DNA of 64,000 nucleotides from Adhaeretor mobilis (GTDB taxonomy: Bacteria; Planctomycetota; Planctomycetia; Pirellulales; Lacipirellulaceae): contig NZ_CP036263.1 of the NCBI RefSeq assembly GCF_007741515.1, positions 4,947,178-5,011,177 on the forward strand. Reading direction: 5' to 3'. Below are positions 24,146-41,232 of this stretch, piece by piece (positions within the stretch are counted from its first letter, which is position 1; each line of letters starts with the position of its first letter). The position numbers and the translations under genes were made by a program. The notes below the pieces were generated by a model that ran no database searches, had not been told where the DNA came from, and saw only the letters and a list, made by a program, of their open reading frames with translations.

Positions 24146-24235
24146 ACCCCTTAACGATGCGCGTTCCGGGGGAGTTTGTCTACAATTCCCGATATTTTCC
24201 CTGAAGGACGTACATGCCATGCAGTCAGTGCTCAC

Positions 24236-24628: not shown

Positions 24629-25249
24629 ATGAGTGCCGAGTTCCAGAACGAGCCAGGTGGCGAACGAGGAAGCAATGGCTCTGCCCATTCTGCGCAAAGC
24701 ATGCCTAAACAGAATACCGCTGAGCAAGACAAGCACCGAGACGCGTTCGCGAGGCTCTTTGCGAAGCACGATCGCTGGTTGTTTGCTTATTTGGTAACAC
24801 TGCTGTCCAGCCCGGCAGATGCAGAAGAAGTATTTCAGGAGATCAGTGTGGTGATCTGGCGGAATTATGAGCGGTTTGAGCTGGGTACGGACTTTGTGAA
24901 GTGGGCAAGCGTGATTGCTCACAACCAGGTCCGCAAGTTTCGCCGTCAGGGTCGCCGGCGAGGATTTCAACTGAGTGATGCGACGTTGGATTTGATGGCC
25001 CAAGAGACAACTCGCCGGGCAGATCTTTTTGAATTTCGTCGCGAAGCGCTCCGCCACTGCATAGAGCAACTACCTGAGAATGACCAGCAACTAGTCCAAC
25101 TTTGCTACAGCGACGACGGCGGTAATTTCAAGACCGTCGCGGAGAGCATCGGCCGACCCGTGAATACCGTTTACAAAGCCTTGAATCGCATCCGTCGTGT
25201 CTTGCACGAATGTATCGACAGGAAGATTGCGCAGGAAGGCCTGCTATGA
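24629..25249 (+). CDS. Sigma-70 family RNA polymerase sigma factor (planctomycete ECF group)
   Basis: The 206-residue protein has region 2 at about 40-110 (FARLFAKHDRWLFAYLVTLL, SSPADAEEVFQEISVVIW, FVKWASVIAHNQVRKFRR) and region 4 at about 135-200 (ALRHCIEQLPENDQQLVQL, IGRPVNTVYKALNRIRRVL). The first 30 residues are a polar extension. Its stop overlaps the start of the FecR/LamG gene (ATGA), the usual two-gene arrangement in this phylum. Position at the head of the alpha-glucan gene run suggests that it controls that run. Confidence 0.92.
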   Translation: MSAEFQNEPGGERGSNGSAHSAQSMPKQNTAEQDKHRDAFARLFAKHDRWLFAYLVTLLSSPADAEEVFQEISVVIWRNYERFELGTDFVKWASVIAHNQVRKFRRQGRRRGFQLSDATLDLMAQETTRRADLFEFRREALRHCIEQLPENDQQLVQLCYSDDGGNFKTVAESIGRPVNTVYKALNRIRRVLHECIDRKIAQEGLL

Positions 25250-27033
25250 CTCGCCCCAGTTACACTAAATTCAACTACTCGAAGCCGCGCATGCTGACAC
25301 TCCTGGGCGAGCTTTGCAACGATACGCTTACTGATGCCAACACGAACCAGATCGCGCATTGGTTGGAAACCGAGCCGCAAGCCCGAATCATCTACGCCAA
25401 CTACATGGCGATGCACGCCGAGCTTTATAGCGAGCCGGCGTTACTTAGCACTCCAACTTCTCTCGTTAATTTGGATCAGCCCGCAGGCGCTAGAGTGAAG
25501 AAGTCGCCATTTCGCGGTTGGCATTTACGGGGCTGGCACCTGGCTTTGGCCGCATCGTTGGCGGCAGTGGCACTAACTGTGGGGGCCTGGCTAGTTCGCG
25601 ACGGTAGCAACCTAAGCAGTGGACCGGCTATGGCAGATGCTAACGACGCATCTCCAGGCTTACCTGTTGCACAAATCACTGGCACGCACAATTGCTTGTG
25701 GAAAGACAATAGGCAGTCCGTTGGTTATGGCGAGCAGCTTGCAGCGGGCCGTCGTTTGGAATTGGCCGAGGGATTGGCGGAGATCACCTTCAACGATGGC
25801 GCTACCATTTTGCTAGAAGGCCCCGCTTCGTTCGTGGTCAGCGGACCTGCCACTGCTGAACTCGATGCCGGTCGCCTTGCAGCGGTGGTACCCAGTCGTG
25901 CAAGTTCGTTCCGTGTATCGACCCAAACGCTTGACTTGCTAGACGCCGGCACGGAATTTGGGCTGCACGCCCTCGACTCAGGCGCTTCTGAGGTTCATGT
26001 ATTTAACGGCATCGTAAGGGCCGACGTACTCGACGCGAGGGGGCGGCCACGCGAGCGATTGCAGCTCAACGCCACCGAAGCGGTACGCATCAATCCTGTC
26101 TCAACAACGGTTATGGAGTTTCCTGCGGATGACGGCAAGTTCATTCGCAGCTTGGCCTCTTCAACAGGTCCGCACGATGGACTGCTCGCCTACGAAGGGT
26201 TTACGTATCCGGCCGGTCCGCTGACCGCTCAGAATGGCGGCTTCGGGTGGGCGGGGCCTTGGTTCAGCATTGCTGCCGACAAGGTCAAAGGCCGCGATAC
26301 CAATAGCGTCGCCAAGGGAAGCCTCGCCGTCGAAGGCATCGTTCCCCTGGGTAATCGCGCCGCACTAACCGGTCACGAGAATCGCATTCGTCGAAGCTTG
26401 GCAACCTCTGTCGGGGGGGGCTTTGATGCCGCCGGACTCGTCGAAAACCAGGATGGCGTGCGGCTGATTGGGCGGGATGGCAAGCAGGTTTTTCTGAGCT
26501 TCGTACAGAGAGTTTCCAAAACCGAAGACGAATTCTATGGCCTGGAGTTGCATCGGGGTGACGGAAACGCCAATCGCGTTCTCTGCCTGGGCCACGGTGA
26601 CGAGGGTGCGGGTTACTGTGCGACATCGAACTTCAACATCTATCGAGCGGAAAACGCGGTTCCACTAGGGACTGAAGACACTACAGCCCACCTGTTTGTA
26701 GTTAAAATATCCTACGGCACGGATAATCGTGACACCTTGGAGGTGTTCCGCGACCCACGACCGCTGCATGAAGAATCGCGACTGCAGCCCGTGGCGAAGT
26801 TGCGCGGGAACTTCGCTTTCGATCGCGTGAGCTTGGCAAACTTCCACGGAGAGAAAATTCACGAAGTAGATGAACTGCGAGTGGGTACCAATTACGCAGC
26901 AGTCACGAAGCGTTGGGGCGGTAATCGAGGGCGACTGATTCGTCGGGTGGCGAACCGTCAGTTCACTTATCCAAGCCTAAAAGAAACAAAACACGGCTTG
27001 TCACTCGTAGTGGCGAGCCACGGATGGAATTGA
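25246..27033 (+). CDS. FecR domain protein with LamG-like C-terminal domain
   Basis: The 595-residue protein starts at ATG 25246 inside the sigma stop. Residues 1-85 are cytoplasmic, with an anti-sigma-like helix bundle (LTLLGELCNDTLTD, IAHWLETEPQARIIYANYM). A membrane helix follows (about 98-118, LALAASLAAVALTVGAWLV). Then comes a FecR domain (about 145-270, LAEITFNDGATILLEGPASF, FRVSTQTLDLLDAGTEFG) and a LamG-like beta-sandwich (about 300-550, LLAYEGFTYPAGPL...VDELRVGT). It likely senses a surface ligand, perhaps a glycan, and restrains the partner sigma factor. The last 40 residues, basic and unlike the domain, seem to be encoded by a repeat-like sequence. Confidence 0.88.
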   Translation: MTRPSYTKFNYSKPRMLTLLGELCNDTLTDANTNQIAHWLETEPQARIIYANYMAMHAELYSEPALLSTPTSLVNLDQPAGARVKKSPFRGWHLRGWHLALAASLAAVALTVGAWLVRDGSNLSSGPAMADANDASPGLPVAQITGTHNCLWKDNRQSVGYGEQLAAGRRLELAEGLAEITFNDGATILLEGPASFVVSGPATAELDAGRLAAVVPSRASSFRVSTQTLDLLDAGTEFGLHALDSGASEVHVFNGIVRADVLDARGRPRERLQLNATEAVRINPVSTTVMEFPADDGKFIRSLASSTGPHDGLLAYEGFTYPAGPLTAQNGGFGWAGPWFSIAADKVKGRDTNSVAKGSLAVEGIVPLGNRAALTGHENRIRRSLATSVGGGFDAAGLVENQDGVRLIGRDGKQVFLSFVQRVSKTEDEFYGLELHRGDGNANRVLCLGHGDEGAGYCATSNFNIYRAENAVPLGTEDTTAHLFVVKISYGTDNRDTLEVFRDPRPLHEESRLQPVAKLRGNFAFDRVSLANFHGEKIHEVDELRVGTNYAAVTKRWGGNRGRLIRRVANRQFTYPSLKETKHGLSLVVASHGWN

Positions 27034-27148
27034 GAAGAAGGCATGTATTGAATTCGGAGGGACGTTGTTTTGGGCACAGCACATTGAACTCTGTGACTGA
27101 GACCACACATTTTTTCTTTCTTAGGGGTTAGTCCCCGGAGGTAGCATC

Positions 27149-28126
27149 ATGAAGTTTATTGGAAGTTTACTGGCCGTAGCACTGCTAGCGATGCCGGCTT
27201 TCGCGCAGCCGCTTGTGGATGGTACGCGTGACGCCAGCTACGGCGCGGCGCTAGCCGTTCAGACTGTGCAGACTCAGTTTGGCGACAACACCGACCCTGC
27301 CGGCTTTAGCAATGAAGGCGAACTCGACGCGGGTTATGCCACGATCAGCGGTGGCAGGCTCTACGTCATGCTCACTGGCAACATTGGGCAAAACTTTAAC
27401 AAAGTGAGCGTGTTTATCGATTCAGTAGCGGGCGGTGAGAATGTGCTCAATGGCGCTCTCGCCTACGACTTCGGGGACGTGTCGCAAAACTTTGGCGGCT
27501 TGACCTTCGATACCGGTTTTGAAGCGGACTATCACCTGTTCGGTCGTTGGAATGGCGGCCCGTTCGAGTTGGATATCGTCGATCGCGCTGCAAGTACTGC
27601 GGGCAACGAATTCGGCAACTTTGGCGCAGCATCAGTTGTTGCTGGCGCTGTTCAGAGCGGAACCATCTCCGCGGGCGGTACCGCAACAACCAATGCTGAT
27701 GGCGGAGGGTTCTTAACCCAAGATGTCGATTTTGGTTTCAACAACACCAACATCCTCGGTGTTACGGGCGGAACGGCTGCTTCTGACCCAGTTGCAGCTG
27801 CTGCGGTTCTGACTGGATTGGAATTCTCGATTGATCTTGCGGACCTGGGTAGCCCAGGGGTCGGTGATGAAATCAAGATCCACGCCGCCTACGGCAATGG
27901 CGACAACAACTACCATTCCAATCAGATCCTCGGTGGCCTACCTGCCCCTCAGGGCAACCTAGGCAGCGATGGAAGCGGGAACGGCACTGGGAATCTGGCT
28001 GGAATTGATTTCAACCAGTACGGTGGAGATCAGTTCTTTACCATTACGGTTGTGCCCGAACCGACCTCGATGCTCCTCTTCGGCCTCGGCTTAGTAGGAC
28101 TCGGCTTAGGACGTCGTCGCAGCTAG
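27149..28126 (+). CDS. PEP-CTERM protein of the VDGT-DA-YG family
   Basis: The 325-residue protein has a signal peptide (1-19, ending AFA before QPLVDGT). Residues about 20-295 form a repetitive beta-rich domain with VDGTRDASYGAALAVQ, LYVMLTGNIGQNFNKVSVFI and LTGLEFSIDLADLG. The C-terminus is a PEP-CTERM signal: VPEP, a helix (SMLLFGLGLVGLGLG) and RRRS. PEP-CTERM proteins are exported and then processed by an exosortase. GGAGG lies upstream of the ATG. A paralogue with an inserted dockerin-like domain is encoded at 33334. The gene is the first after the sigma/FecR pair and is followed by a strong hairpin, so its transcript may be most abundant. Confidence 0.88.
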   Translation: MKFIGSLLAVALLAMPAFAQPLVDGTRDASYGAALAVQTVQTQFGDNTDPAGFSNEGELDAGYATISGGRLYVMLTGNIGQNFNKVSVFIDSVAGGENVLNGALAYDFGDVSQNFGGLTFDTGFEADYHLFGRWNGGPFELDIVDRAASTAGNEFGNFGAASVVAGAVQSGTISAGGTATTNADGGGFLTQDVDFGFNNTNILGVTGGTAASDPVAAAAVLTGLEFSIDLADLGSPGVGDEIKIHAAYGNGDNNYHSNQILGGLPAPQGNLGSDGSGNGTGNLAGIDFNQYGGDQFFTITVVPEPTSMLLFGLGLVGLGLGRRRS

Positions 28127-28176
28127 TTGGCGGTGCGGAGAGTTGTACAGAAAGATTGACGAACCTGGCAATCCGC

Positions 28177-28200
28177 CCCGTCGCACAACTGTGCGACGGG
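28177..28200 (+). terminator. Hairpin after the first PEP-CTERM gene
   Basis: CCCGTCGCAC (28177-28186) pairs perfectly with GTGCGACGGG (28191-28200) around AACT. It starts 51 bases past the stop codon, and TTTACTTTT follows about 10 bases later. It may end or attenuate transcription before the DUF1559 gene. Confidence 0.65.
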
Positions 28201-28261
28201 CGGGGAGTCGGTTTACTTTTCAAGCGAGCCAAGACCTTGGTTCCAAATCAACGGAAGAATT

Positions 28262-29350
28262 ATGAATCGTCAGAACAGAACAAATCCCAGGGCAAGACAA
28301 CTTCGCGGCTTCACCCTCGTGGAACTGCTCGTGGTGATCGCAATCATTGGCGTCCTGGTAGGCTTGCTCTTGCCCGCGGTGCAAGCCGCCCGCGAAGCGG
28401 CCCGGCGGATGAGCTGTGGGAATAACTTAAAACAGCTGGGGCTGGCTTGTTTGACGTTCGAGAGCTCCAACGGGCACTTGCCGGTAAGCATCATGCGCTA
28501 TCCTGAAGATCAGTCCTACGAAGGTGGATCTTCGCCTGTTTGGGTTGGTCCGCCAGGTGGTAAAATGGCTGCCGACAACGGGGGCCCCGGTTACAGCGGC
28601 AAGGGTTGGATTGTCGATGTGCTGCCGCAGATGGAACAGCAAGCTGCGTATGACCGAATCATCGAGGCTTGCAAGCTGAGGCCAGGCAAGCAGTTCGCTG
28701 CTTTAGCGACCGCTGGTCGAGGAATGGGCGATGCTGCGATACGCGACATTGTAAGTACACAACAACCCTTCTTAACCTGCCCCTCGGACGGCTCGGCTGT
28801 GGCTTCTGACAAGCAGTACTGGTGGGGAAGCTGGCCCACCGGCGCTGGCATCCTGGTGGGGACGACTTCCTACAAAGGTGTTATCGGGGATTCGATTATC
28901 TCCGGAACGGCCAATGGACAGGACACAATCTTCATTGACTCCGGTTCCACACCCGATTGCCACAACACGGTCGACTGCAATGGACTGATCTGGAGGAATA
29001 CGTCTTACGATCCTGTCGAACTACGTCAGATCTCTGACGGACAAAGCAATACTTTCATGGTGGGTGAAGGGGTCGTCTCTCAAGACTTTCATTCGGCAGC
29101 TTTTTTCGCCGATGGAGACTGGGCAACCTGTGGAATACCGCTGAACTTCTTTATCTTAGACCTCTCTGAAGAGGAGATAAAGTCGTCGCATTGGCACGAG
29201 ACCCGTGGCTTCAAGAGCCTACACCCGGGCGGTTCTCAATTTGTACTGGCCGATGGATCGATGCATTTCGTGGCCGAGGGTATCGACACGCAAACTTATC
29301 GTGGACTAGCCACGCGCAATGGTGAAGAGGTTGTTTCCCTAAACAACTAG
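28262..29350 (+). CDS. DUF1559 domain-containing prepilin-like protein
   Basis: The 362-residue protein has the prepilin helix [20 protein letters not shown] with Glu5, followed by [18 protein letters not shown], and ends with the H-X9-DG motif [18 protein letters not shown] is upstream of the ATG. It is followed by a small lipoprotein gene, a pair repeated in reverse orientation at 41380-42981. Within the alpha-glucan block it may supply a surface fibre that carries or positions the amylase and binding proteins; this is inference. Confidence 0.93.
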
Positions 29351-29420
29351 ATGACGAGACAACTAGCAGGTCAAACAACGAGTAAGCCTAGTAAGCACAG
29401 ACATTTAGCAGGGTTTTCGA

Positions 29421-29885
29421 ATGACAAGTAAGCGTTGGTTTCGAGAGGTCCTGACCGTTGCGCTAGTTGCAGTCACCGTGGGCTGTGGTGGTGTCTACGA
29501 TTCAACGATCAGCGGCAAAGTATCGCTCGACAATCAAGCGCTTTCCCGTGGTGCCATTACCTTTCAACCGATCACATCAGGTCCCCCCTCAACGGGGCGA
29601 ATCAAAAGCGACGGGAGCTATCGAATAAGAACCGGCAGTGAAATCGGACTACCTCCGGGGGAATACAAAGTAACCATCCGTGCGAACGAGGCTCCAGCGA
29701 ATGCCGTCAGCAAAGATGGCGGACCGCCACCAATAGGAAAACGCATCACACCCGTCTGGTACGACCGTGCGAGCACCACTCCACTGTCGTTTCAAGTCCA
29801 ACCAGGACCCAATACTTACGACATTGAACTTTCCGAAAAACCACCCGAAGGCTGGGTCGATCCAGCCAAGAAACGTCGGCGTTAG
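29421..29885 (+). CDS. Small lipoprotein with carboxypeptidase-regulatory-like fold
   Basis: The 154-residue protein has a signal ending TVGC (Cys22), a likely lipid attachment site. The remainder is a single beta-sandwich typical of small planctomycete lipoproteins: ISGKVSLDNQALSRGAITF, GSYRIRTGSEIGLPPGEYKV and a strand ending YDIELSEKP. Such transthyretin-like domains have no known activity. The gene sits 70 bases after the DUF1559 gene and 24 bases before the amylase gene. Confidence 0.75.
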   Translation: MTSKRWFREVLTVALVAVTVGCGGVYDSTISGKVSLDNQALSRGAITFQPITSGPPSTGRIKSDGSYRIRTGSEIGLPPGEYKVTIRANEAPANAVSKDGGPPPIGKRITPVWYDRASTTPLSFQVQPGPNTYDIELSEKPPEGWVDPAKKRRR

Positions 29886-29909
29886 AAAGCAAGCAAAGAA
29901 ACCTCTTCC

Positions 29910-32900
29910 ATGCATGACACTCAAGCACCAGCACGAAACAGACCGCGCATTGCCTGCTGGGCTTTGGCGCTGTCCTGCGCGGCTTGGGTAGCTGCAACGA
30001 GCGGAATGCAGCCTGCATCCGCACAAGATGCTTCGGCTCCTGCGATGCTGCAAATTTTTGAAGCTCGTTGGGAGACCGTTGAGAACCGCATGGCCGATAT
30101 TTTTGACATCGGCTACGGTCGCCTCTGGATACCTCCGACCAGTCGTGCCGATTCAGGTGACCAATCGGTGGGCTACGACGTCTACGACCGCTTCGACCTG
30201 GGCACGGGCCGTCGCCCAACTGCCTATGGTTCGAAGGTGTCGCTCCAACGCATGATTGAAGATGCCCACGACGCGAGTGTCGATGTCTATGCCGACTTGA
30301 TTCTCAATCATGCCGGCTTCAGCGACCTCTCCAACTTCGATAACTATGGCACCCCAAACGATCCGTCCGACGATGTGACTTTTGCGGAAGCGGGCGGATA
30401 CCCGGGCCTGGCAATCACACTACCTGGAGATATTGATGGCGATTTTCACAGCTCCTTTGAAACGGGCGATCTGAATGGTCGTTTGGCCGGACTCGTGGAT
30501 ATTGCTCAAGAGAAGAATCACCAGTTCATTCGCAATCCCGTCGCCGTGGGCGATCCTAATAATATTCCTGCTGGTACGGCTGCCGCTTTCGGTCGCATTG
30601 CCAACTTGCCCGACGCGAATAACGCCCGTTTCTATCCGGACCAAGACCTCGGTGGCACACAATTCGACGTCGACCCCGGTCCAGGCGAATTCCTTGTCAC
30701 GCGTTACGACTTCAACCGGGTTAACCCACTAGCCGGCGATGCGGTTGTCGAGACGGCCGAGCAACTCTTGATGCGCCATGCACAATGGATGATTCAAGAA
30801 GTGGGCCTCGATGGTTTCCGCTTAGATGCGGTCAAGCATATGCCAACCAACACGCTCACGCTGCTGGATCAGGCTGTCTACAAGGTGAACGACCGGTTGC
30901 AGCACGATGGGAGCTACAAGCCCGTGTTCTCTTTTGGTGAAGTACTGGATGGCAACACGGGCACGCTGCAGAATTACATCAACTCCAATTTGCCCAACCC
31001 CTCAGCCATCCCGGCCGACAACTTCGAAGTGCGCGGCAATCGCGATGTGCTCGATTTCCCCCTCTTTTTTGCTATGCGTAGCAATCTCACCAGCAATGGT
31101 TTGGGAAACAACTGGCACAACATTCGTAACGCAAGCCAGGACCTCAACGACGACGGGCTGCACAACGGCAGCCAGGGCGTGTCATTTGTCGACAGTCACG
31201 ACAATCTGGGAGGCGGTTTCCCCTTCCTCAAGAATGTCGCTTACGCCTACACCCTCATGCGACCGGGCAACGCGCTGGTTTATACCAATGCGAAAGAATT
31301 TGGCAGTGGACGAGATTTCCCAAATACTGGTAAGGTCGATGCGCTGGGCGGCGTTTTCGGCGAGACGATCACCAAGCTGGTTGAAATTCGCAACACGCAT
31401 GGCCGCGGAGATTTCCGCGAACGCTGGCTCGACGACGGGTTCAATCCCGATGGTTTTTCCAATGTTTACATCTACGAGCGTTCCAACTCTGCGATCGTCG
31501 GGTTGAACAGTCGCAACGACGACTTTGTAGAAACGCGGAACGGTGTGCAGACTGATTTTGCGCCCGGCACGGTGCTGGTTGAGCTCACCGGTAATGCCGC
31601 CGACTCGACAGTCGATCCGGGGGGAGCGATTCCCGATACCCTTCGTGTGAACGACAACGGGGGTGGCATTGGCGTTATCGACATGAGCATTCCCAGCAAC
31701 GGTTCGCACGGACGCGGCTACGTGATCTACGGGCTGGCGACTCCCCAGGGGTCGCTTTCGTTAAGCAACGTCTCGTCCACGATGCAGGGGGCGACCCCCA
31801 CGGTGGCAACCAACGGAACCGCACGACTGGCGGATATCGATGTCATCACCTCAGACACGTTCGAATTGCAACTCAACACAACCGCCGTGACCTTGCCCGC
31901 GCCCCCCGGGGAAGCAACTCCCTATCGAGACTTTGATGCCGACGGCGACAACGCACTTTTCAAGTTTGACGAAGGCCAAGACCTCAACGGCAACTCAGGA
32001 ATCGACCACACGACTCCCGGATCCGTGGTGTACGGATTTGAATTTTTCACGGATACGCGCATCCCCGGTTATATCGACGATGGCAGCGGTGGGAACTCAG
32101 GCTCGGGCAGTGGAACCTACACTCAGACAATTGATGCGACGCAACTGGCTGAGGGGCGGCACTATGTAACCACCCGTGCTTTCCGTCACCGCGACGACGG
32201 TCCAGCTGTGTTCACCGACTTCAAGAAAACCATCTATATCGATCGGTTGCCCGCCGATAGTGCGGTCGTAAGTTTCCAGCCGTATGAGAGTAACCCCGCA
32301 GCGGTGGAGGATCGCGACCTGATCGTGCGGAACCCAGATGGTACGGCCAACAATATGCATATCTTCCTGGATAAAGCAGCCGCTTTGTCGGACGCACAAA
32401 TCCTGGCACTCGCACAAGGCTCGTCGAACAACGGGCAAGCTGGGCAATACGATCGCGACGCGTGGGTCTCTGGCTTTGAGAACGTACCATTCGGCAACCA
32501 TGTGGCAACGGTGGTTACCTACGAGGCGACCGGAAATGTTGGGATTCAGCGCCATGTGGGACTGTTCGTCGATGCGGGAATTGGCGCTGGCTTCGGTGAT
32601 CTGGACGCCGACGGCGTTTATGAGAACAGCGATCTGTCGGGCACGACAAATGGCTCGTTTGAGGCGGTGCTCTATTCGCAAGACACCCAGTTCAACCCAG
32701 CAGCGGATGTCGATGGCGATGGTCGCGTCACGAATCTTGATTTGTTCCTCCTCGGCGACGAGCTGATCGAGGGAGGGGCCGGCTTTCTCACCCAGCAAGC
32801 TTTCGATGGCGTGCTGGTCCGCCGCGGCGATGTGAACAACTCGGGTACCACCGATGGCAACGACGTGGCTGAGCTCCATGCTGGCTTTGGCGGCACCGCT

Positions 32901-33278
32901 TGGATCGACGACTTGAATGCTGATGGCAGCGTTGACATCGACGATGTGGCGACGCTTGTCGACGATTTGGTCGGCACCAGCCGCGGGGATTTTGATTTGG
33001 ATCGTGATGTTGACGGCGGAGACTTTCTCGCTTGGCAACTGGGAATCGGCGGCAATCGTTTCGACCAGGGAGATGCCAACCTCGACGGCGTCGTCGATGC
33101 AACCGACCTCGGCATTTGGCAAGCTGAGTACGGCTTCATCGCCGCAGGATTCGGATCTGCGATAGCCGCATCCTCAGCGATACCCGAACCGTCGTCACTC
33201 GTGCTCGTCAGCCTCGGCTTGCTAGTCGTTTGTAGCAGTCGCAAGAAGTCAGTTCGCCACAACCAATTTATGCAGTAA
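29910..33278 (+). CDS. GH13 alpha-amylase with dockerin-like repeats and PEP-CTERM anchor
   Basis: The 1122-residue exported protein has a signal peptide (to about residue 38, PASAQ). The GH13 barrel shows the four conserved regions: I, DLILNH (D129, N133, H134); II, GFRLDAVKH with nucleophile D306; III, FSFGEV with acid/base E344; IV, VDSHD with H430 and D431. Beta-rich domains follow (about 520-860). From about residue 885 come calcium-loop repeats of dockerin type (DLDADGVYENSD, DVDGDGRVTNLD, DVNNSGTTDGND, DLNADGSVDIDD, DFDLDRDVDGGD, DANLDGVVDATD), then IPEPSSLVLVSLGLLVV and a basic end, the PEP-CTERM signal. It likely cleaves starch or related alpha-glucans at the cell surface, passing products to the GH13 lipoprotein and ABC importer downstream. 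Confidence 0.9.
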   Translation: MHDTQAPARNRPRIACWALALSCAAWVAATSGMQPASAQDASAPAMLQIFEARWETVENRMADIFDIGYGRLWIPPTSRADSGDQSVGYDVYDRFDLGTGRRPTAYGSKVSLQRMIEDAHDASVDVYADLILNHAGFSDLSNFDNYGTPNDPSDDVTFAEAGGYPGLAITLPGDIDGDFHSSFETGDLNGRLAGLVDIAQEKNHQFIRNPVAVGDPNNIPAGTAAAFGRIANLPDANNARFYPDQDLGGTQFDVDPGPGEFLVTRYDFNRVNPLAGDAVVETAEQLLMRHAQWMIQEVGLDGFRLDAVKHMPTNTLTLLDQAVYKVNDRLQHDGSYKPVFSFGEVLDGNTGTLQNYINSNLPNPSAIPADNFEVRGNRDVLDFPLFFAMRSNLTSNGLGNNWHNIRNASQDLNDDGLHNGSQGVSFVDSHDNLGGGFPFLKNVAYAYTLMRPGNALVYTNAKEFGSGRDFPNTGKVDALGGVFGETITKLVEIRNTHGRGDFRERWLDDGFNPDGFSNVYIYERSNSAIVGLNSRNDDFVETRNGVQTDFAPGTVLVELTGNAADSTVDPGGAIPDTLRVNDNGGGIGVIDMSIPSNGSHGRGYVIYGLATPQGSLSLSNVSSTMQGATPTVATNGTARLADIDVITSDTFELQLNTTAVTLPAPPGEATPYRDFDADGDNALFKFDEGQDLNGNSGIDHTTPGSVVYGFEFFTDTRIPGYIDDGSGGNSGSGSGTYTQTIDATQLAEGRHYVTTRAFRHRDDGPAVFTDFKKTIYIDRLPADSAVVSFQPYESNPAAVEDRDLIVRNPDGTANNMHIFLDKAAALSDAQILALAQGSSNNGQAGQYDRDAWVSGFENVPFGNHVATVVTYEATGNVGIQRHVGLFVDAGIGAGFGDLDADGVYENSDLSGTTNGSFEAVLYSQDTQFNPAADVDGDGRVTNLDLFLLGDELIEGGAGFLTQQAFDGVLVRRGDVNNSGTTDGNDVAELHAGFGGTAWIDDLNADGSVDIDDVATLVDDLVGTSRGDFDLDRDVDGGDFLAWQLGIGGNRFDQGDANLDGVVDATDLGIWQAEYGFIAAGFGSAIAASSAIPEPSSLVLVSLGLLVVCSSRKKSVRHNQFMQ

Positions 33279-33333
33279 CCAACCAACCTAGTAACCAATT
33301 CACTCAGTTCTTGTTTATTTGAGAGGGACAAAA

Positions 33334-34830
33334 ATGACACGCAAACTAAAATCAGTGAGTGTTCTCGCAGGGCTGTTGTGCCTGAGCTTAACGCTCACCG
33401 CCGAGGCACAAATCATCGTGGATGGCACGGCCGATGCTAATTACGGCCCCGCGCTATCAACACAAAACACCAATACCGAGTTTGGCAACGCCGACTCGGG
33501 TGATCCGCTGAACCCAGGCGGTGGATCGGAGATCAACCAGGTATTCGCAACCGTTAGCAATGGCCGGCTTTACGTTTCGATTACTGGCAACTTGGAAGCG
33601 AATTTCAACAAGCTGGATGTTTTTCTCGATGTCAATGCTGGTTCAGGTCAAAACACGATCGATGGCTCGACGCTTCCTACCGACGTCGATCACTTTTGCT
33701 GTGGTGGCGAAAATTCTTCGACAAACGCCTTGCAAAACATTGAAGGATTGCATTTTGACACCGCTTTCAAAGCAGACCATTACCTCACATTTGCTAACGG
33801 CTTCGAAACGGTCCGCCCCGGTGAGAATGAGTTGAAATTCTATGCTCTCACCTCGCACTATTCCGACCTCAATGGAGGTGTCAACGGTCGTCGTGGGGCC
33901 TTAGGAATGCAACTCGCCCAGAACGGGCTGCCCCAAGTCCTGCGCGGCACGACGGGTGACTTCGATACCGATGGCAATGTGGATGGCGGTGAGTTTCTCA
34001 CTTGGCAACAGAACAACGGCGGCACTGAGCTCACGCGTGCTGCTGGTGATGCCACTGGCGAAGGAACTGTCGACGCGGCTGACCTGGATGTTTTTCAAGC
34101 TACCTATGGCTTCGATGTGGCGACTTCGAGCTTCGATTCCTACTACTTCGCTCCGCAGAACCCTAGCGCTGACAACTCCAACGCTCTTTTAGGTCCGACA
34201 CTGCCCAATTTGGCACAAGGCCAGTTGATCGATAAGAACTACGCACTCTCGCCCACCGGCGGGGAAGGAACCGACGACGAAGGCACGAATCTAATCACAC
34301 GCGAGCTAGAGTTCGTGCTGCCAGTTGCCGCCAGCGATCCTACAAATGCCTTCAACCATCGCGATATGGAAAATATTGTTGATCTGGAAATGGCGATCAA
34401 CAACAGTAACACGGCAGGGGTGAATGGCGACTCTGGTAACACGGGCGAACCTGGCGATCCTCCTCCTTATGAGACTCCTACCGCAGGAGACCCAGGAAAC
34501 GTAGTCACCGGCATCGAGTTCTCCATTCCTCTTTCTGAAATTGGCAATCCCACTGGCGACATTCGTATCGCAGCATTTGTCAATAGCGGCGATCACAACT
34601 ACGCATCTAACCAATTCGCCGGAGACGGTATCCTCAGAGGGAATCTCGGCGGTGATGGCGTGGGTGGGTCCATTGGCGATCTGCTCGGAGTAGATCTCAG
34701 CGCGATCGCTGGCGACCAGTTCGTCACCGTGAGCCAAGCAGTGCCAATCGCCTCAGCAGTTCCAGAACCAAGCAGCTTGGTTCTGTGCTTGCTGGCCGGT
34801 TGCAGTGGGTTAATTCGCCGCAAACGTTAA
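33334..34830 (+). CDS. PEP-CTERM protein of the VDGT family with an inserted dockerin-like domain
   Basis: The 498-residue protein starts at ATG 33334, with GAGAGG 8 bases upstream. After the signal peptide (to about residue 25), the family domain begins IIVDGTADANYGPALSTQ and continues to LQNIEGLHFDTAFKADHYL. A dockerin-like EF-hand pair lies inside the domain (DFDTDGNVDGGEFLTWQQNN and DATGEGTVDAADLDVFQATY, residues about 208-257). The second half then resumes (GIEFSIPLSEIGNPTGDIRI, NLGGDGVGGSIGDLLGVDLS). The end is VPEPSSLVLCLLAGCSGLIR with basic residues, a PEP-CTERM signal. It is a paralogue of the 27149 protein, which lacks the insert. Confidence 0.87.
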   Translation: MTRKLKSVSVLAGLLCLSLTLTAEAQIIVDGTADANYGPALSTQNTNTEFGNADSGDPLNPGGGSEINQVFATVSNGRLYVSITGNLEANFNKLDVFLDVNAGSGQNTIDGSTLPTDVDHFCCGGENSSTNALQNIEGLHFDTAFKADHYLTFANGFETVRPGENELKFYALTSHYSDLNGGVNGRRGALGMQLAQNGLPQVLRGTTGDFDTDGNVDGGEFLTWQQNNGGTELTRAAGDATGEGTVDAADLDVFQATYGFDVATSSFDSYYFAPQNPSADNSNALLGPTLPNLAQGQLIDKNYALSPTGGEGTDDEGTNLITRELEFVLPVAASDPTNAFNHRDMENIVDLEMAINNSNTAGVNGDSGNTGEPGDPPPYETPTAGDPGNVVTGIEFSIPLSEIGNPTGDIRIAAFVNSGDHNYASNQFAGDGILRGNLGGDGVGGSIGDLLGVDLSAIAGDQFVTVSQAVPIASAVPEPSSLVLCLLAGCSGLIRRKR

Positions 34831-34845
34831 AGGTCGTTTTCATGC

Positions 34846-34893
34846 GAGGGGCTGCGTTCATTTGCTCAAATGCGAGGGCAGACGCGGCCCCTC
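34846..34893 (+). terminator. Hairpin between PEP-CTERM and GH13 lipoprotein genes
   Basis: GAGGGGCTGCGT (34846-34857) pairs with ACGCGGCCCCTC (34882-34893), one pair being G-T, with a smaller CATTTG/CAAATG stem inside. TTTCTCT follows. It ends 16 bases after the PEP-CTERM stop at its left arm. It covers the TTG at 34862, which argues for a later start of the next gene. Confidence 0.65.
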
Positions 34894-34927
34894 TTTCTCT
34901 ATCAAGTTAGCTCTTGGGGCGGTGGTT

Positions 34928-36928
34928 GTGGCTGGAAATATTGACTTTGCTCAGGGACGGCTAACTCGCATCCCCTCAGCGCTAACGCTGGCTGCAAGCT
35001 TAGTACTGGTACTGCCGGTCGGTTGCAGCCCTAATCAAGGGCCACGCACCGAGCAAGCCTCTGCGGAGCTTGAGTCAGTAAAGACGAGTGAAGTCGCAGC
35101 CGCGAATCGCGATGAGGCGGCTATCCCTTCGCCCGCTTGGCCAGAGGTGAAGGGAAATGCGACCGTCCCGGAGTGGGCCGTGGATGCGGTGTTCTATCAG
35201 GTGTTCCCGGAACGCTTCCGCAATGGCGATAGCTCCAACGATCCCACGCGCGAGTCGCTAGAGTTTCCTGATACCGTCGCAGAGAACTGGGCCATCACAC
35301 CTTGGACGGGCGACTGGTACGCGCGAGCTGATTGGGAACAAGCCGACGGTGACAATTTCTATGAGCACGGTGTTTTCAATCGACGCTACGGCGGAGACTT
35401 GCAGGGCATTCTCGATGGGCTGGACTACCTGCAATCGCTCGGCGTGAACACGCTGTATCTAAATCCTGTATTTTACGCTCGCTCGTTGCACAAGTACGAC
35501 GGCGCTTCGATGCACCACATCGATCCCTACTTTGGCCCCGATCCGGCGGGCGATTTCGCTCTAATGGCTAAAGAAACAAGCGCTCCCGAGACGTGGCAAT
35601 GGACGGCGGCAGACAAGTTGTTTCTCAAGCTTATTGCCGATCTGCACCAGCGCGAAATGCGGATCATCATTGACGGCGTGTTCAATCATACAGGGCGCGA
35701 CTTTTTCGCTTTTGCGGATCTGATGAAGAACCAAAAGAAATCGCCCTACAAAGAGTGGTATATCGTCTCGACTTTCGACGATCCCGAGACGCCAGGCGAT
35801 GAGTTCAAGTACAAAGGTTGGTGGGGCGTACACACGCTGCCCGAGTTCACCGACATTCATCAGGGTGCCGATCTTCACCCGGGCCCGAAGCAGTATGTCA
35901 TGGACATTACCAGCCGCTGGATGGATCCCAACGGCGATGGCGACCCGAGTGACGGCATCGATGGCTGGCGATTGGATGTGGCGAACGAAGTACCCATTGC
36001 CTTCTGGAAGGATTGGAACGCACATGTGAGGCAGCTCAACGGAGCGGCTTATACCGTCGCCGAGCATTGGGAGGACGCGGCTCAGTTCCTAGCAGAAGGC
36101 GGGTTTTCCGCTACGATGAATTACCATGCCTTTGCATTCCCAGTGAAGGGATTTTTGATCGACGGGCAACTCTCGGCTCATGATTTCGCCCGCGAGCTAA
36201 CGCTCCGCCGCCAAGACTTCCCGCCAGCGACGTCGTTTGTGCTGCAAAACTTGATCGACTCGCACGACACCAACCGCCTGGCGTCGATGATTGTGAATCG
36301 CCCTGACTATGAAAAAGCACAACCTTACTTGCAGCCTCACAAATTTGACTACGATGTCAGCGAACGTGTCTCGCCACGTTACTGGAAAGAGTGCAATGTC
36401 CAGGCACCCAATGCCGAGGAGCGAAAGATTCAGCGGCTCGTCGTGCTCATGCAGATGACCTACGTTGGCGCTCCGATGATCTATTACGGCGACGAAGCCG
36501 GTATGTGGGGTGCCGACGATCCGTGTGATCGTATGCCGATGGTTTGGCAAGACATGACGTTCGAGGACCAGTCGCATGATCCACTCAATCGCCAGCGCAC
36601 TCCCGATCCCGTGAGCTTCGCTCAAGGGCTATTCGACTTCTACCAGCAGGCGATTTCGCTTCGCAGCGAGCTTCCCGTGTTACGCCGCGGCTCGATAGCG
36701 AAAGTGCTAACCGACGACGATGCGCAAGTCTATGTGTTTCAGCGGAAGCTGGGTGATCGCCAAGTGATCATAGCGATCAATCGCGGTGCAGAAGCATTTA
36801 CAGTTACATTGCCCGAGGTGAGTGAGTCGAAGTGGGAGGTAAAACTGACGACTGGCTTTGAAGGGGACGAGTCCCCGCAGAAAGAATTCACCCTGCCGGC
36901 CCACGAAGGCGTGGTCCTCTATCGCTAA
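34928..36928 (+). CDS. GH13 alpha-glucosidase lipoprotein (cyclomaltodextrinase/neopullulanase-like)
   Basis: The start is uncertain: the frame is open from TTG 34862, but that lies within a hairpin, so GTG 34928 (or 34922) is preferred, giving 666 residues. The lipobox LPVGC follows the hydrophobic LTLAASLVLV (lipid Cys33). The enzyme part begins WAVDAVFYQVFPERFRNGD, as in cyclomaltodextrinase and neopullulanase. Active-site regions: I, IIDGVFNH; II, GWRLDVANE with nucleophile D350; III, VAEHWED with E379; IV, IDSHDTNR with H446 and D447. It probably shortens maltodextrins or cyclodextrins on the periplasmic face before uptake. The fused importer gene starts 19 bases after its stop. Confidence 0.9.
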   Translation: MAGNIDFAQGRLTRIPSALTLAASLVLVLPVGCSPNQGPRTEQASAELESVKTSEVAAANRDEAAIPSPAWPEVKGNATVPEWAVDAVFYQVFPERFRNGDSSNDPTRESLEFPDTVAENWAITPWTGDWYARADWEQADGDNFYEHGVFNRRYGGDLQGILDGLDYLQSLGVNTLYLNPVFYARSLHKYDGASMHHIDPYFGPDPAGDFALMAKETSAPETWQWTAADKLFLKLIADLHQREMRIIIDGVFNHTGRDFFAFADLMKNQKKSPYKEWYIVSTFDDPETPGDEFKYKGWWGVHTLPEFTDIHQGADLHPGPKQYVMDITSRWMDPNGDGDPSDGIDGWRLDVANEVPIAFWKDWNAHVRQLNGAAYTVAEHWEDAAQFLAEGGFSATMNYHAFAFPVKGFLIDGQLSAHDFARELTLRRQDFPPATSFVLQNLIDSHDTNRLASMIVNRPDYEKAQPYLQPHKFDYDVSERVSPRYWKECNVQAPNAEERKIQRLVVLMQMTYVGAPMIYYGDEAGMWGADDPCDRMPMVWQDMTFEDQSHDPLNRQRTPDPVSFAQGLFDFYQQAISLRSELPVLRRGSIAKVLTDDDAQVYVFQRKLGDRQVIIAINRGAEAFTVTLPEVSESKWEVKLTTGFEGDESPQKEFTLPAHEGVVLYR

Positions 36929-36947
36929 GGCGTTACTCCCCCTCAAT

Positions 36948-39251
36948 ATGCTCGACGCCACTCGCGAACTTCCCGCCAACCTGTATCGCCGAAAGCCGGC
37001 CTGGCGTCTTCTTGCCATAATCGGTCTCTTAATCACGCTCTCAGGCTGCAGCAAGCAGGATGACCGTCACGTGATCCAGCTTTGGCACCAAATGGTCGTC
37101 AACGAACGCCTGTTTCTCAATGAACTCGTAACCGAATACGAAAAGCAGCATCCCGAGATCGATGTTCGGCTCGTGTTCAAAGACACAGAAGAACTCCGCA
37201 GCAGCTTTCAAGCTGCCGCTCTCGCGGGCGTGGGCCCAGCGATTGTTTATGGGCCGAGTGATGTGCTGGGCGCATATCACACAATGGGAATCATCGCTGA
37301 TATGACTCCTTGGTTGGATGAGAACGCGCGTGCGAAATTCAAACCGGGCGGGCTCACCTACCTTCCTGCCAAAGACGGTCCTCAACGCGATGATTCTCAA
37401 AATAGGGATCTCGTGCAGGTGTCGGATCGCTTTGGCAATCATTTGGCACTAGTCTACAATCGCAAGTTTGTAGAGACTCCTCCGCAGACTGTCGAAGAAC
37501 TGATTGAGATCGGCCGCCGCAACACGCTCGACGAGGACGGCAACGGACGCAACGAGCGCTACGGATTGGTTTGGAACTACGAAGAGCCCTATTTTGCTGT
37601 ACCGTTCATCACAGGCTCGGGTGGCTGGCTGTTTGCCAATGAGGAGAACACCGAGCCGGATCTGGATACTCCGCAGATGGTGGCGGCTCTGCAGTTGATC
37701 GACGATCTCCAACGTGTCCACGGAATCGTTCCTCGCGGCTGCGACTATGAGACGGCCGACTCGCTCTTCAAATCGGGCAATGCCGCTATGATCATCAATG
37801 GCGATTGGAGTTGGGGGGACTACCTTGCTTTGGAGCGTATCGATGCTGCCATCGCTCCACTGCCAATCGTCACGGAAACGGGACAGCCCATGGGACCGAT
37901 GATCTCCCCCAAGGGATACTCGCTAAATAAGAATGCGACGCCTGCCCAGCGCGATGCTGCGATGCAACTAATCACCTACCTCACAAGCGAATCTTCGCAG
38001 CGACGTGCCCTGCACTCGCTTCGTATTCTGCCCTCTCGCACTGCGCTGTACGACGATCCCCTGCTCACGCAAGATCCCACGCTCAAAGCATCGCGAGAAC
38101 AGTTTGAACAAGGGCACCTAATGCCTTCCGGCTCAGAGATGCGTGCCGTGTGGGATGCCATGCGGCCACCCTACCAAGCTGTGCTGGGAGGAGCAATCTC
38201 CGCGAAAGACGCCGCCGCCGCCATGCAAGCTAATGCCGAGCAGGCCATCTCCTTGCTGCAGCGCGACGACCAGGAGATCGGCGGAAGTTGGTTGTGGGCA
38301 GCTCTGGCAAGTGCGACCACGCTGGGATTGTTGTTCTGGCAACGTCGCGGACTGGCAACTTTGCTGCCCGACATGCGCCGCCAACCGTTGGCCTACTTGC
38401 TTGTTGGCCCGGCCATTGTGCTGATCTTCCTGACCGTTGTGTTTCCCTTTTTCTACAATCTGCTGCTCTCCTTCTCGAACATGTCGCTCACACATTTTCA
38501 AGATTGGGGATTCGCTGGTTCACAAAACTACATCGACGTGCTTGGCGACGGCCAGTTCTACGCGGTTCTGCTGAAGACCATCATCTGGACGATTGTAAAT
38601 GTCGTGTTCCATGTTGGCATTGGCATACTGCTGGCTGTAGCACTGAACGGACCGATTCGAGGCAAGGCGATTTACCGCGTGTTGTTGATTCTCCCTTGGG
38701 CAGTGCCGGCTTACATTACGGCACTCACTTGGCGCAGCATGTTTCATTTGGAGTATGGAGCGGTGAACTTGCTGGGCAATCAGTTGTTCGGCATACCGCC
38801 GGTCAACTGGCTTGGCGAAGCAACCAACGCGTTCATCGCCTGCATTATCGCAAATGTATGGCTCGGGTTTCCTTTCATGATGGTCATTGCCTTGGGCGGA
38901 CTACAAGGAATCCCACAAGACATGTACGAAGCCGCGCGAATCGATCGCGCATCGCGTTGGCAACAATTCCGTCATATTACGCTCCCGTTGCTCAAGCCGG
39001 TCCTCGCTCCGGCGGCCACGCTCGGCGCTATTTGGACATTCAACAACTTAAACGTCGTCTGGCTCGTGTCCAATGGTGGCGCTCCTTCTAACAAGACACA
39101 CATCCTCGTGTCCTACGTATACAAGGAAGTTTTCAATCTGTACCGCTATGGCTACGGTGCGGCGCTCTCCATGATTGTCTTCGTCATCCTGCTCGCCTTC
39201 TGCCTGGTCTTCCTGCATCGAGCAAAAGCCACGGAGAACGTATATGGTTAG
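36948..39251 (+). CDS. Maltodextrin ABC importer: binding protein fused to MalF-like permease
   Basis: From ATG 36948 the protein has 767 residues; an open frame from 36858 runs inside the GH13 gene and is rejected. A signal with lipobox LSGC (Cys34) leads into a sugar-binding protein of family 1 (about 40-440: IQLWHQMVVNERLFLNELVT, AAMIINGDWSWGDYLALERI, PKGYSLNKNATPAQRDAAMQ). An extra membrane helix (about 447-462) is followed by six MalF-type helices, with the EAA loop YEAARIDRASRWQQFRHITL at about 659. E. coli MalE and MalF are separate proteins, so this is a fusion giving each importer a tethered receptor. The next gene overlaps by 8 bases. Confidence 0.9.
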   Translation: MLDATRELPANLYRRKPAWRLLAIIGLLITLSGCSKQDDRHVIQLWHQMVVNERLFLNELVTEYEKQHPEIDVRLVFKDTEELRSSFQAAALAGVGPAIVYGPSDVLGAYHTMGIIADMTPWLDENARAKFKPGGLTYLPAKDGPQRDDSQNRDLVQVSDRFGNHLALVYNRKFVETPPQTVEELIEIGRRNTLDEDGNGRNERYGLVWNYEEPYFAVPFITGSGGWLFANEENTEPDLDTPQMVAALQLIDDLQRVHGIVPRGCDYETADSLFKSGNAAMIINGDWSWGDYLALERIDAAIAPLPIVTETGQPMGPMISPKGYSLNKNATPAQRDAAMQLITYLTSESSQRRALHSLRILPSRTALYDDPLLTQDPTLKASREQFEQGHLMPSGSEMRAVWDAMRPPYQAVLGGAISAKDAAAAMQANAEQAISLLQRDDQEIGGSWLWAALASATTLGLLFWQRRGLATLLPDMRRQPLAYLLVGPAIVLIFLTVVFPFFYNLLLSFSNMSLTHFQDWGFAGSQNYIDVLGDGQFYAVLLKTIIWTIVNVVFHVGIGILLAVALNGPIRGKAIYRVLLILPWAVPAYITALTWRSMFHLEYGAVNLLGNQLFGIPPVNWLGEATNAFIACIIANVWLGFPFMMVIALGGLQGIPQDMYEAARIDRASRWQQFRHITLPLLKPVLAPAATLGAIWTFNNLNVVWLVSNGGAPSNKTHILVSYVYKEVFNLYRYGYGAALSMIVFVILLAFCLVFLHRAKATENVYG

Positions 39252-40077
39252 CGAACCCAAACGCATCACGTTCTTGCGGCATGCCGTGCTCTTGTTGTTC
39301 GTGGCGATCAGCGTCTACCCGGCGCTCAATGTGCTATCGATCTCCCTGCGCCCCGGCGATCAACTCAAAACGACCGATCTTTCGATCATCCCGGACAACT
39401 GGACGTTCGATTCCTACATCGCGTTGTTCACGGAGCAACCATTCCTGCGTTGGCTAGCAAACTCGCTGTTGGTTTCCTTCGCGGTAACCGTCACCGGCGT
39501 GGCGCTCGCTGCAATGGGAGGATACGCGCTTAGTCGATTTCGTTTCGTGGGGCGGCAAGCCCTAATGCTCTCGATCCTCACGACGCAGATGTTTCCCGCC
39601 ACAATGCTCCTGCTGCCTTTGTACATTCTGGTGGCCAAGCTGAACCTGATGAATACTTTCCTGGGCTTGCTTGTGTTTTATGTCTCCACTGCCCTGCCCT
39701 TCTGCGTGTGGCAAATGAAAGGGTTTTACGACACGATCTCGCCTTCGCTGGAAGAGGCGGCCCGAGTGGACGGTTGCTCGCGAATGGTCGCCTTTCGCCG
39801 GGTCATCTTGCCACTGGCGGCGCCCGGCTTGGTGATCACGGCCTTGTTCAGCTTTATGACCGCCTGGAGCGAGTACATCGTTGCCGCCCAGGTCTTGCAA
39901 GATCGCGACATGTTCACTCTCCCGTTGGGTGTGAAGAGTTTTCAAGCCAGTATGTCTACCCAGTGGGGGCTCTACGCAGCGGCCGCCATTTTGGTTAGCG
40001 TGCCGGTGGTCATCGTTTTTATTGTGCTTAGCAAATACCTGGTATCCGGCATGACTGTCGGAGCTGTCAAAGAGTAG
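39244..40077 (+). CDS. MalG-like sugar ABC transporter permease
   Basis: The 277-residue protein starts at ATG 39244, inside the end of the fused binding protein-permease gene. It has six hydrophobic helices, starting with HAVLLLFVAISVYPALNVLS. The EAA loop, which couples to the ATPase, is LEEAARVDGCSRMVAFRRVI (about residues 178-197), and the C-terminal helix (ILVSVPVVIVFIVLSKYLV) is followed by SGMTVGAVKE, the typical MalG ending. It pairs with the fused MalF-like protein to form the channel. Confidence 0.93.
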   Translation: MVSEPKRITFLRHAVLLLFVAISVYPALNVLSISLRPGDQLKTTDLSIIPDNWTFDSYIALFTEQPFLRWLANSLLVSFAVTVTGVALAAMGGYALSRFRFVGRQALMLSILTTQMFPATMLLLPLYILVAKLNLMNTFLGLLVFYVSTALPFCVWQMKGFYDTISPSLEEAARVDGCSRMVAFRRVILPLAAPGLVITALFSFMTAWSEYIVAAQVLQDRDMFTLPLGVKSFQASMSTQWGLYAAAAILVSVPVVIVFIVLSKYLVSGMTVGAVKE

Positions 40078-40134
40078 TCCCTTCGCTTTCGTTTCCCTTT
40101 CAAGAGTTCTCCTTTCAGAATAAGTATAACTGTC

Positions 40135-41232
40135 GTGGCAACTGTCAGCTTTCGCAATGTGAACAAGGTCTATCCCGATGGATTTCACGCCGTTCATGAT
40201 TTGAATTTAGAAGTGAAAGAGGGAGAGTTCCTTGTGCTGGTCGGGCCCTCAGGGTGCGGAAAAAGCACCACGCTGCGCATGCTCGCCGGGCTGGAGGAGA
40301 TTTCCTCCGGTGAGATCGCCATTGAAGATCGCGTAGTGAACGCCATCGAGCCGGGTGATCGCGACATCGCCATGGTCTTCCAAAACTACGCGCTCTACCC
40401 GCACATGTCGGTTCGCGAGAACTTGGCCTTCGGCCTAAAAATGCGCCGCACGCCAAAGCAGGAGATCGCCGAGCGCACCGCCGAAGTGGCGAGTACTTTG
40501 GGAATTGAGTCGCTGTTGGATCGCCGACCGCGCGAGCTCTCCGGCGGGCAACGGCAGCGTGTGGCACTCGGGCGGGCAATCGTGCGGCAACCGAAGGTAT
40601 TCCTGTTTGACGAGCCGCTCTCCAATCTCGATGCCAAACTGCGCGTGCAAATGCGTGCCGAGATTGCATCATTGCACCATCGTTTAAAGACCACCATGGT
40701 GTACGTAACGCACGACCAAGTGGAAGCGATGACTCTCGGCGAGCGCATCGTCATCATGAACCACGGACGCATTCAACAAGCTGCCGCTCCACTGGAGCTC
40801 TATCGCCGCCCGGCAAACCGTTTCGTCGCGGGTTTCATCGGCAGTCCGCCTATGAACTTCCTGCGAGGGACTCTCAAAGACAGTATGTTTCAGAGCGAGG
40901 GCATGTCGATCCAACTTGCCAACGTTTCCAACGAAGCCTTGTCGCACGAGGGGAACGTGTGGCTAGGTTTCCGCGCGGAGGACCTCGTCTTGAATAGCGA
41001 TGGGCCCAGCCTGCCTGAAGTTGAGTTAGAAGTCGTGGAACAAATGGGGCACGAGTCGATTGGCTACTTCACGCTCCTGGGCGAGCGACATTCGATTCGT
41101 CTTCCCGCCACCAGCGAAGTCAACCCAGGCAGCCGCATCGTGCCGCGACTTCGCCCTGCGGGTTGGCACTTATTTGCTGATGACGAAGAAGGTTGCCGCT
41201 TTGCCCGCGAAAATGAGACAGCGCAGGTTTGA
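40135..41232 (+). CDS. MalK/UgpC/MsmK-family sugar ABC transporter ATPase
   Basis: The 365-residue protein starts at GTG 40135. Walker [10 protein letters not shown] is at 37-45, the Q-loop lies in [15 protein letters not shown], the signature is [14 protein letters not shown], and Walker B is [12 protein letters not shown], followed by the H-loop [12 protein letters not shown]. After about residue 235 comes the TOBE/OB regulatory domain characteristic of MalK-type ATPases ([21 protein letters not shown]). It is the motor of the importer and the last gene of the co-directional block. One such ATPase may serve several importers. Confidence 0.94.

Follow-up and report, generated by a model that had tools for sequence, protein, structure and literature searches.

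Planctomycetes are known for breaking down complex polysaccharides, and the locus described here raises the question of how one of them may feed on alpha-glucans with machinery of its own. A 2026 paper on two new Lacipirellulaceae species still terms the planctomycete uptake system 'yet uncharacterized' (PMC13315336). The locus lies in a 64,000-nucleotide stretch of the Adhaeretor mobilis genome (contig NZ_CP036263.1, positions 4,947,178 to 5,011,177; hereafter the window, whose numbering is used throughout) and comprises eleven open reading frames (ORFs) at 24629-41232, all on the plus strand and several of them overlapping. They encode an extracytoplasmic function (ECF) sigma factor, a FecR protein, two VDGT proteins of PEP-CTERM type (PEP1 and PEP2), a DUF1559 protein, a small lipoprotein, two glycoside hydrolase family 13 (GH13) enzymes, and the MalE-, MalF-, MalG- and MalK-like parts of a sugar ATP-binding cassette (ABC) importer. 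The original prediction, made from the sequence without database searches, was of an alpha-glucan locus run by its sigma/FecR pair and a possible counterpart of the Sus and Mal systems; the eleven ORFs and their families are as described there, apart from corrections given below. Taken as a whole, it is highly probable that the eleven genes form, in the Lacipirellulaceae, a self-contained locus for alpha-glucan use that has a sigma switch and an importer of its own and parts that can be swapped.

Conservation of gene order, which had been set beforehand as a refuting test of the prediction, was examined in the Lacipirellulaceae, of which 43 genomes were searched. A full-length match to the MalE-MalF fusion described below is present in 20 of the 43 family genomes (A. 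mobilis included; 21 copies), with a fragment at a contig end in G038, and all 20 copies outside A. mobilis, from 19 genomes, define the loci compared. In 20/20 loci, contig ends apart, the genes for sigma and FecR are followed in the same order by the PEP1 slot, DUF1559, the lipoprotein (one copy or two, with two in many relatives), GH13 amylase, PEP2 slot, GH13 lipoprotein, MalE-MalF and MalG: L052 and L055 stop at contig ends, and the L046 stretch stops short, but L236 contains its sigma gene and promoter motif. Five loci lack a direct PEP1 match, two of them a direct PEP2 match as well, and MalK is attached in six. Best-match identities to the window proteins (the 20 loci plus L233) range from 38% (PEP1) to 93% (MalG), and Bythopirellula polymerisocia (Pla144) is a named carrier. 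Because the gene order is conserved in relatives, the locus is more than a chance neighbourhood. Of eight ORFs flanking it in the window, six have no match in the relatives' loci and a seventh has a partial one at a single locus edge; the eighth encodes a DUF1559 protein and cross-matches DUF1559 genes, which with few exceptions belong to the locus itself. This comparison is partial, the stretches being no longer than 19.9 kb with at most a few kb of flank.

The regulatory pair extends beyond the fusion. An orthologue of the FecR protein (E <= 1e-50) is found in 29 of the 43 family genomes and in one of 353 other genomes sampled from the order, and a GH13 amylase gene lies 3' of sigma/FecR, on the same contig and strand and within ~8 kb, in all 27 genomes whose contigs reach that far. 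The contigs of the remaining three of the 30 FecR-bearing genomes (G022, G035 and G266) end before the amylase position, and the rest of the G035 locus is on another contig (L055). One locus with a dedicated sigma/FecR pair is thus what the order (20/20) and the amylase linkage (27/27) bear out, and the prediction was not refuted. Nine FecR-bearing family genomes, whose loci were retrieved along with that of G266, have no full-length fusion match; two of the nine, G021 and G022, are cut by contig ends, so that absence of the fusion is unproven there. We also note L233 (in G033), a locus running from sigma to the GH13 lipoprotein with no MalE-MalF in the stretch after it; a MalK-like gene 73% identical is found elsewhere in that genome.

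In the rest of the order, the fusion is matched at E <= 1e-100 in 14 genomes, in some of them partly or in pieces. A GH13 lipoprotein homologue lies upstream of it in 11/11 stretches whose contigs reach, MalK lies downstream in 12 of the 14 (the other two end first), and five (L105, L107, L111, L112 and L115) have a divergent GH13 amylase homologue, two with DUF1559 and two lipoprotein genes; sigma, FecR, PEP1 and PEP2 have no match in any of the 14. From these stretches we therefore infer that the import core is the more widespread part and that the surface part led by sigma comes near to being a trait of the Lacipirellulaceae.

The sigma gene (24629-25249) encodes a TIGR02989 member (153.1 bits against a curated cut-off of 124.55), and 28 locus sigmas, 27 of them from relatives, form one clade against nine A. 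mobilis paralogues (support 98/96); the L242 sigma is a divergent sequence. The FecR (PF04773) gene (25210-27033) follows directly, overlapping the sigma gene by 40 nt, and its product consists of an N-terminal part, a single transmembrane segment (approximately residues 111-130, by eye), the FecR domain and a conserved C-terminal domain. The last of these had been described as a LamG-like outer domain, and this proposal is not borne out: LamG is matched in 0/18 FecR orthologues (Pfam, E up to 1), and a sequence search of the PDB gives no match. Divergently upstream of the locus, at 23552-24235 on the minus strand, there is a second, weaker TIGR02989-like ECF sigma gene (47.4 bits, below cut-off), with no match in the relatives' 20 loci, which include little upstream flank.

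Upstream of the sigma gene is a motif, TACCAA-N13-GCGCCTTAC (24512-24539, plus strand, with 89 nt from its end to the sigma start codon), whose conservation at fixed spacing suggests an ECF-type promoter. It was first spotted by eye and then searched for by pattern and by matrix. The pattern TACYAR-N13-GCGCCTWAC identifies 22 sites in 18 of the 43 family genomes, against two for the reversed control, with one or two sites in each of the 18; 18 of the 22 sites are upstream of the locus sigma, including those of G035 and of G038, in which a 103-residue start of the sigma is all that precedes the contig end. The window site has the top score in the 64 kb (36.1 bits, next best 7.6), and the upstream regions of the nine paralogous sigmas score no more than 0.6 bits. 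When each locus is scored on both strands with a leave-one-out matrix, its best site falls no more than 300 nt upstream of sigma in 26 cases out of 29, made up of 16/16 training loci and ten of 13 others (the misses are L239, L241 and L245); because the training sites were chosen by pattern, only the 13 non-training loci are a fair test. Two of the passing loci, L238 and L240, score less than 2 bits, and L243 has 8.7 bits. The position of the motif is consistent with autoregulation by the sigma factor.

The four other strict sites are unlinked to the locus, and each is 5' of an ORF in the right orientation with an exported-looking product. These are a GH57 protein in G027 (CBM53 and dockerin matches below cut-off), a glucose/sorbosone dehydrogenase with a dockerin and a PEP-CTERM-like tail in G020 and, in G000 and G028, one small protein each whose tail is PEP-CTERM-like by eye. 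The G000 protein has no Pfam match at E 0.01 and is weakly PEP1-like in profile comparison, the G028 protein being PEP1-like in its tail only; BLAST without composition correction pairs the two (26% over 242 residues), and we claim no homology from this. A kinship of PEP1 with the C-terminal stretch of the GH57 protein was considered and is unsupported by profile comparison, and a separate motif copy for divergent PEP1 genes was likewise set aside, with a weak site in L245 (15.5 bits) and none convincing in L239. Where MalK is unlinked, no strict site is present at its genomic places.

The locus combines an exported amylase with a further alpha-glucan hydrolase, export being read from the N-termini, and in both GH13 enzymes all four active-site motifs are readable by eye. 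The first (29910-33278) is of the Bacillus liquefying amylase type (B. licheniformis amylase); its N-terminus is of export type on visual inspection, and its PEP-CTERM score is borderline (20.6 bits, cut-off 20.7). It had been described as a surface amylase with dockerin-like repeats, and EF-hand/dockerin-like repeats can indeed be seen by eye; Pfam Dockerin is not reported for the window GH13 protein. A cellulosome-like complex can be rejected, as the genome offers the repeats no cohesin partner (PF00963, 0 matches in the whole genome). The second enzyme (34862-36928, start position unsure) is a lipoprotein of the neopullulanase, cyclomaltodextrinase or maltodextrin-glucosidase type.

The importer was described as complete, and MalE, MalF, MalG and MalK homologues are all present, the last with the MalK OB domain; they occupy three ORFs because the binding protein and the MalF-type permease form one protein. 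This MalE-MalF fusion (36948-39251, ATG 36948 being likelier than the ORF start at TTG 36858) has 797 residues and an N-terminal lipobox by eye, with SBP_bac_8 at residues 89-411 and the permease at 586-788. The best solved-chain match of the MalE half is 6ffl (E 7.7e-95), which we take to be the MalE part of a Bdellovibrio MalE-MalF fusion, and other MalE structures are also matched. A MalG-type permease gene (39244-40077, ATG 39244 likelier than TTG 39175) and a MalK-type ATPase gene (40135-41232) complete the set, which by family knowledge would bind and transport maltodextrin. Matches spanning MalE and MalF are widespread: the best 80 listed include Ignavibacteria, Neomarinimicrobiota, Cloacimonadota, Bdellovibrio relatives and more (L136-L198 in part).

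What substrate class the surface proteins serve is best judged from the relatives. PEP1 (27149-28126) is a PEP-CTERM protein as claimed, and we propose that it binds alpha-glucan at the surface; PEP2 (33334-34830, in an ORF open from TTG 33319) is a PEP1 homologue with a dockerin-like insert, a PEP-CTERM-like tail seen by eye and no Pfam match. PEP-CTERM proteins are sorted by exosortases, and the genome has two exosortase matches. In the five loci with no PEP1 match the slot is filled by another PEP-CTERM protein, and four of these (L042, L044, L045 and L048) carry an X25 (pullulanase) domain above cut-off; the fifth, in L047, has no binding domain match. In L047 and L048 the PEP2 slot, too, is filled by a PEP-CTERM protein, here a larger one, in which X25 and the glycogen-recognition domain AMPK1_CBM both score above cut-off, so that X25 is present in six of the seven divergent slot proteins and AMPK1_CBM in two. 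Two of the seven were compared with the PDB and give weak matches only (best GlgB, E 0.025, and AMPK beta, E 0.86). X25 is found in five of six slot proteins scanned from L238, L240 and L241, whose genomes have no fusion, and not in the one scanned from L242. A GH97 protein is encoded in L238, L239 and L240, all three from fusion-free genomes; that of L238, the sole one compared, matches solved GH97 alpha-glucosidases including SusB (E 7.7e-235 and 3.3e-151), and the corresponding ORF of L241 is a candidate of similar appearance. Where loci vary, the recognisable swaps thus stay within alpha-glucan functions; this is the strongest sequence evidence for the substrate class, and it lends PEP1 and PEP2 indirect support as binding proteins.

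Two further genes and two RNA features lie in this part of the locus. The DUF1559 (PF07596) protein (28262-29350) has a prepilin N-terminus and an H-X9-DG C-terminus, and the small lipoprotein (29421-29885) has a CarboxypepD_reg match below cut-off (20.9 against 32.3 bits). At 27112-27148, just before the PEP1 start codon, a U-rich stretch is followed by a hairpin, GGGG-N5-CCCC (27124-27142, plus strand, by eye), that abuts the GGAGGT sequence (GGAGGU in the RNA). The arrangement is seen by eye in 14 of 16 loci, with differing arms; L056 and L057 lack it, and none was seen before PEP2, DUF1559 or the amylase gene. It is possibly a processing or stability element raising PEP1 output, and the leader folds are not uniformly unusual (z 0.39 to -2.12). 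The PEP1-DUF1559 gap (28127-28261) has an unusually stable predicted fold with a long GC stem (z -3.25; 1/200 shuffles at least as stable).

We propose the following course of events. The membrane FecR protein would hold the ECF sigma until alpha-glucan or its breakdown products caused its release, and the sigma would then transcribe its own operon from the conserved TACCAA motif, together with a few unlinked genes for exported proteins. Starch or glycogen would be held by the surface PEP-CTERM proteins, as the alpha-glucan-binding domains in relatives' slots suggest, and cut by the exported GH13 amylase to maltodextrins, which the GH13 lipoprotein is predicted to trim or debranch at the membrane; for both enzymes the role is that of their families. 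Maltodextrins would pass to the fused binding protein and be imported by MalE-MalF, MalG and MalK, as is usual for Mal systems. Relatives appear to swap parts of equal function, with GH97 taking the place of a missing importer and X25 or AMPK-CBM proteins that of the VDGT proteins, and an ATPase encoded elsewhere probably stands in for a linked MalK.

The alternative that survives best is that the genes do serve alpha-glucans and that the sigma/FecR pair answers a general signal such as envelope stress, attachment or starvation, with the locus as one of several surface-remodelling outputs. DUF1559, lipoprotein and PEP-CTERM-type genes also accompany other TIGR02989 pairs, and the genes at unlinked motif sites include two small proteins without assigned function (two of the four) and one dehydrogenase. 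In a Rhodopirellula baltica study (PMC2754498), some ECF sigma genes are stress-responsive and nine DUF1559 genes respond to cold and salt shock. Against a general signal stand the small number of strict motif sites per genome, an amylase gene that is always 3' of sigma/FecR where this can be tested, and other pairs of the same genome that adjoin other substrate sets, and we regard it as unlikely.

A second alternative, less probable still, is a conserved neighbourhood without common control, in which the sigma/FecR pair transcribes itself and PEP1 only and the rest have promoters of their own. In the loci with both genes parsed, PEP1 is preceded by a gap of 115-275 nt and DUF1559 by one of 117-329 nt, which leaves room for further promoters; PEP1 has its hairpin leader, and the window locus contains no second strong motif copy (7.6 bits at its next best site, with 15-16 bits in L042 and L045). 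Set against this are the single strand throughout, the several gene overlaps and the order kept in 20/20 loci, contig ends apart. Mal-type import or recycling of internal or short alpha-glucosides (trehalose, glycogen debris) beside unrelated surface genes could draw on 14 other genomes of the order in which the GH13-MalEF-MalG-MalK core has no sigma/FecR pair linked to it and on the spread of spanning matches over many phyla among the best 80 listed, but is very improbable given surface genes that stay attached in 20/20 family loci (contig ends apart), an amylase of liquefying type with an export-type N-terminus, replacement slot proteins with starch- or glycogen-type binding domains, and GH97 where the importer is missing.

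Several observations, along with the gaps and the unlinked genes just mentioned, weigh against a self-contained alpha-glucan locus under its own sigma switch. The motif was spotted visually before a matrix was trained on 16 of these very loci, and in some loci of the family (L238, L239, L240, L241, L243 and L245) it is weak or absent. All of these sigmas except that of L245, together with that of L057, form one subclade (support 100/98), and by eye L238, L239, L240, L241, L243 and partly L057 keep TACCAA with a different second half. No signal-receiving domain is recognised in FecR (Pfam on 18 orthologues, PDB sequence search), the AlphaFold model of its C-terminus being too poor to use (mean predicted local distance difference test score, pLDDT, 36.6), and no FecR orthologue is found at E <= 1e-50 in 14 of the 43 family genomes. 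Window PEP1 and PEP2 have no Pfam binding domain match, and the PEP1 model is also too poor (pLDDT 44). Finally, MalK is not found within 2-3 kb downstream of MalG in 13 of the 20 loci; the L043 contig ends.

The locus sigma is one of ten TIGR02989 sigmas above cut-off in the A. mobilis genome. Each of the nine others is followed by a FecR-like gene (by BLAST to the window FecR), with DUF1559 within the next three ORFs in six; DUF1559 neighbours alone are weak evidence because R. baltica is reported to have 74 such genes (PMC2754498). A Pfam scan of 26 selected neighbours across the nine loci identifies sulfatases in L089, L094, L096 and L097, GH95 in L094, GH29 in L097, GH42, CBM96 and a sodium symporter in L092, and DUF4832/4874 in L095, with no hydrolase among the neighbours scanned in L090 (one), L091 (three) and L093 (two); five of the nine pairs thus adjoin sulfatases or glycoside hydrolases. 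In L092 (A. mobilis 3926700-3942700), sigma/FecR occurs with a CBM96 protein bearing a PEP-CTERM-like tail, the sodium symporter, GH42 and a phosphomannose-isomerase-like protein, and this is likely a second glycan locus. In L097 (5095000-5111000), sigma/FecR is followed by DUF1559, a lipoprotein, a GH29 fucosidase-domain protein and three sulfatases, and it looks like a sulfated-fucan locus. Whether there is a general planctomycete platform resembling a polysaccharide utilisation locus (PUL) and independent of SusC/D, made of a TIGR02989 sigma, a long FecR, a class-specific promoter, PEP-CTERM binders, DUF1559, a lipoprotein and interchangeable hydrolase sets, is in our view an evenly balanced question. 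On that reading the alpha-glucan set is used here and sulfatase, GH29, GH95 and GH42 sets at the other copies in the genome, and, if it is true, the alpha-glucan copy would be one whose promoter, regulon and substrate class can all be named.

The Sus system of Bacteroides thetaiotaomicron is a starch PUL whose parts are general knowledge, and the proposed counterpart relation holds at the level of function: the window locus shares with Sus a surface-type GH13 amylase, a GH13 enzyme of neopullulanase type and a dedicated regulator, and relatives have, in the same locus, a GH13 of SusA type, alpha-glucan-binding domains in slot proteins and, in some, a GH97 enzyme of SusB type. It fails as a matter of family on SusC, for which TIGR04056 has 0 matches in the whole genome; none of the eleven genes is SusC/D, SusD having been looked for at the locus only. 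Here the proposed binding proteins are of PEP-CTERM type and not lipid-anchored, maltodextrin import would be by an ABC system, and sigma/FecR takes the place of SusR. With Mal-type importers of the fused kind, which we take to be that of Bdellovibrio, the locus shares MalE and MalF in one chain, MalG, and MalK with an OB domain; it differs in that the importer genes belong to a surface amylase operon headed by an ECF sigma gene and that MalK is often unlinked. FecI/FecR and the ECF/anti-sigma pairs of Bacteroidota PULs are examples of surface signalling by ECF sigma and FecR, and the likeness is in a sigma gene overlapping a membrane FecR gene and an upstream promoter motif. The differences are that no SusC-type transducer is found (other TonB receptors and porins were not searched) and that FecR bears a further large conserved C-terminal domain. 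The TIGR02989 family (Rhodopirellula/Verrucomicrobium) gains in this sigma a member above cut-off tied to a substrate class and a promoter motif, an assignment for which we found no precedent in the open-licence literature. Nor did open-licence PMC literature yield an account of this locus or of planctomycete glycan loci controlled by sigma/FecR, and the novelty of the locus is provisional. In one study, alpha-glucan PULs are classed by enzyme content and alpha-glucan genes are noted in particle-attached Planctomycetota (PMC10877868).

From this locus the component parts, the promoter sequence and the predicted regulon can be listed for one substrate class. A sigma/FecR switch with PEP-CTERM surface proteins and either ABC import or GH97 would be an alternative route to the task performed by Sus, and it offers a testable answer to how planctomycetes may eat polysaccharides without the machinery of gut Bacteroides.

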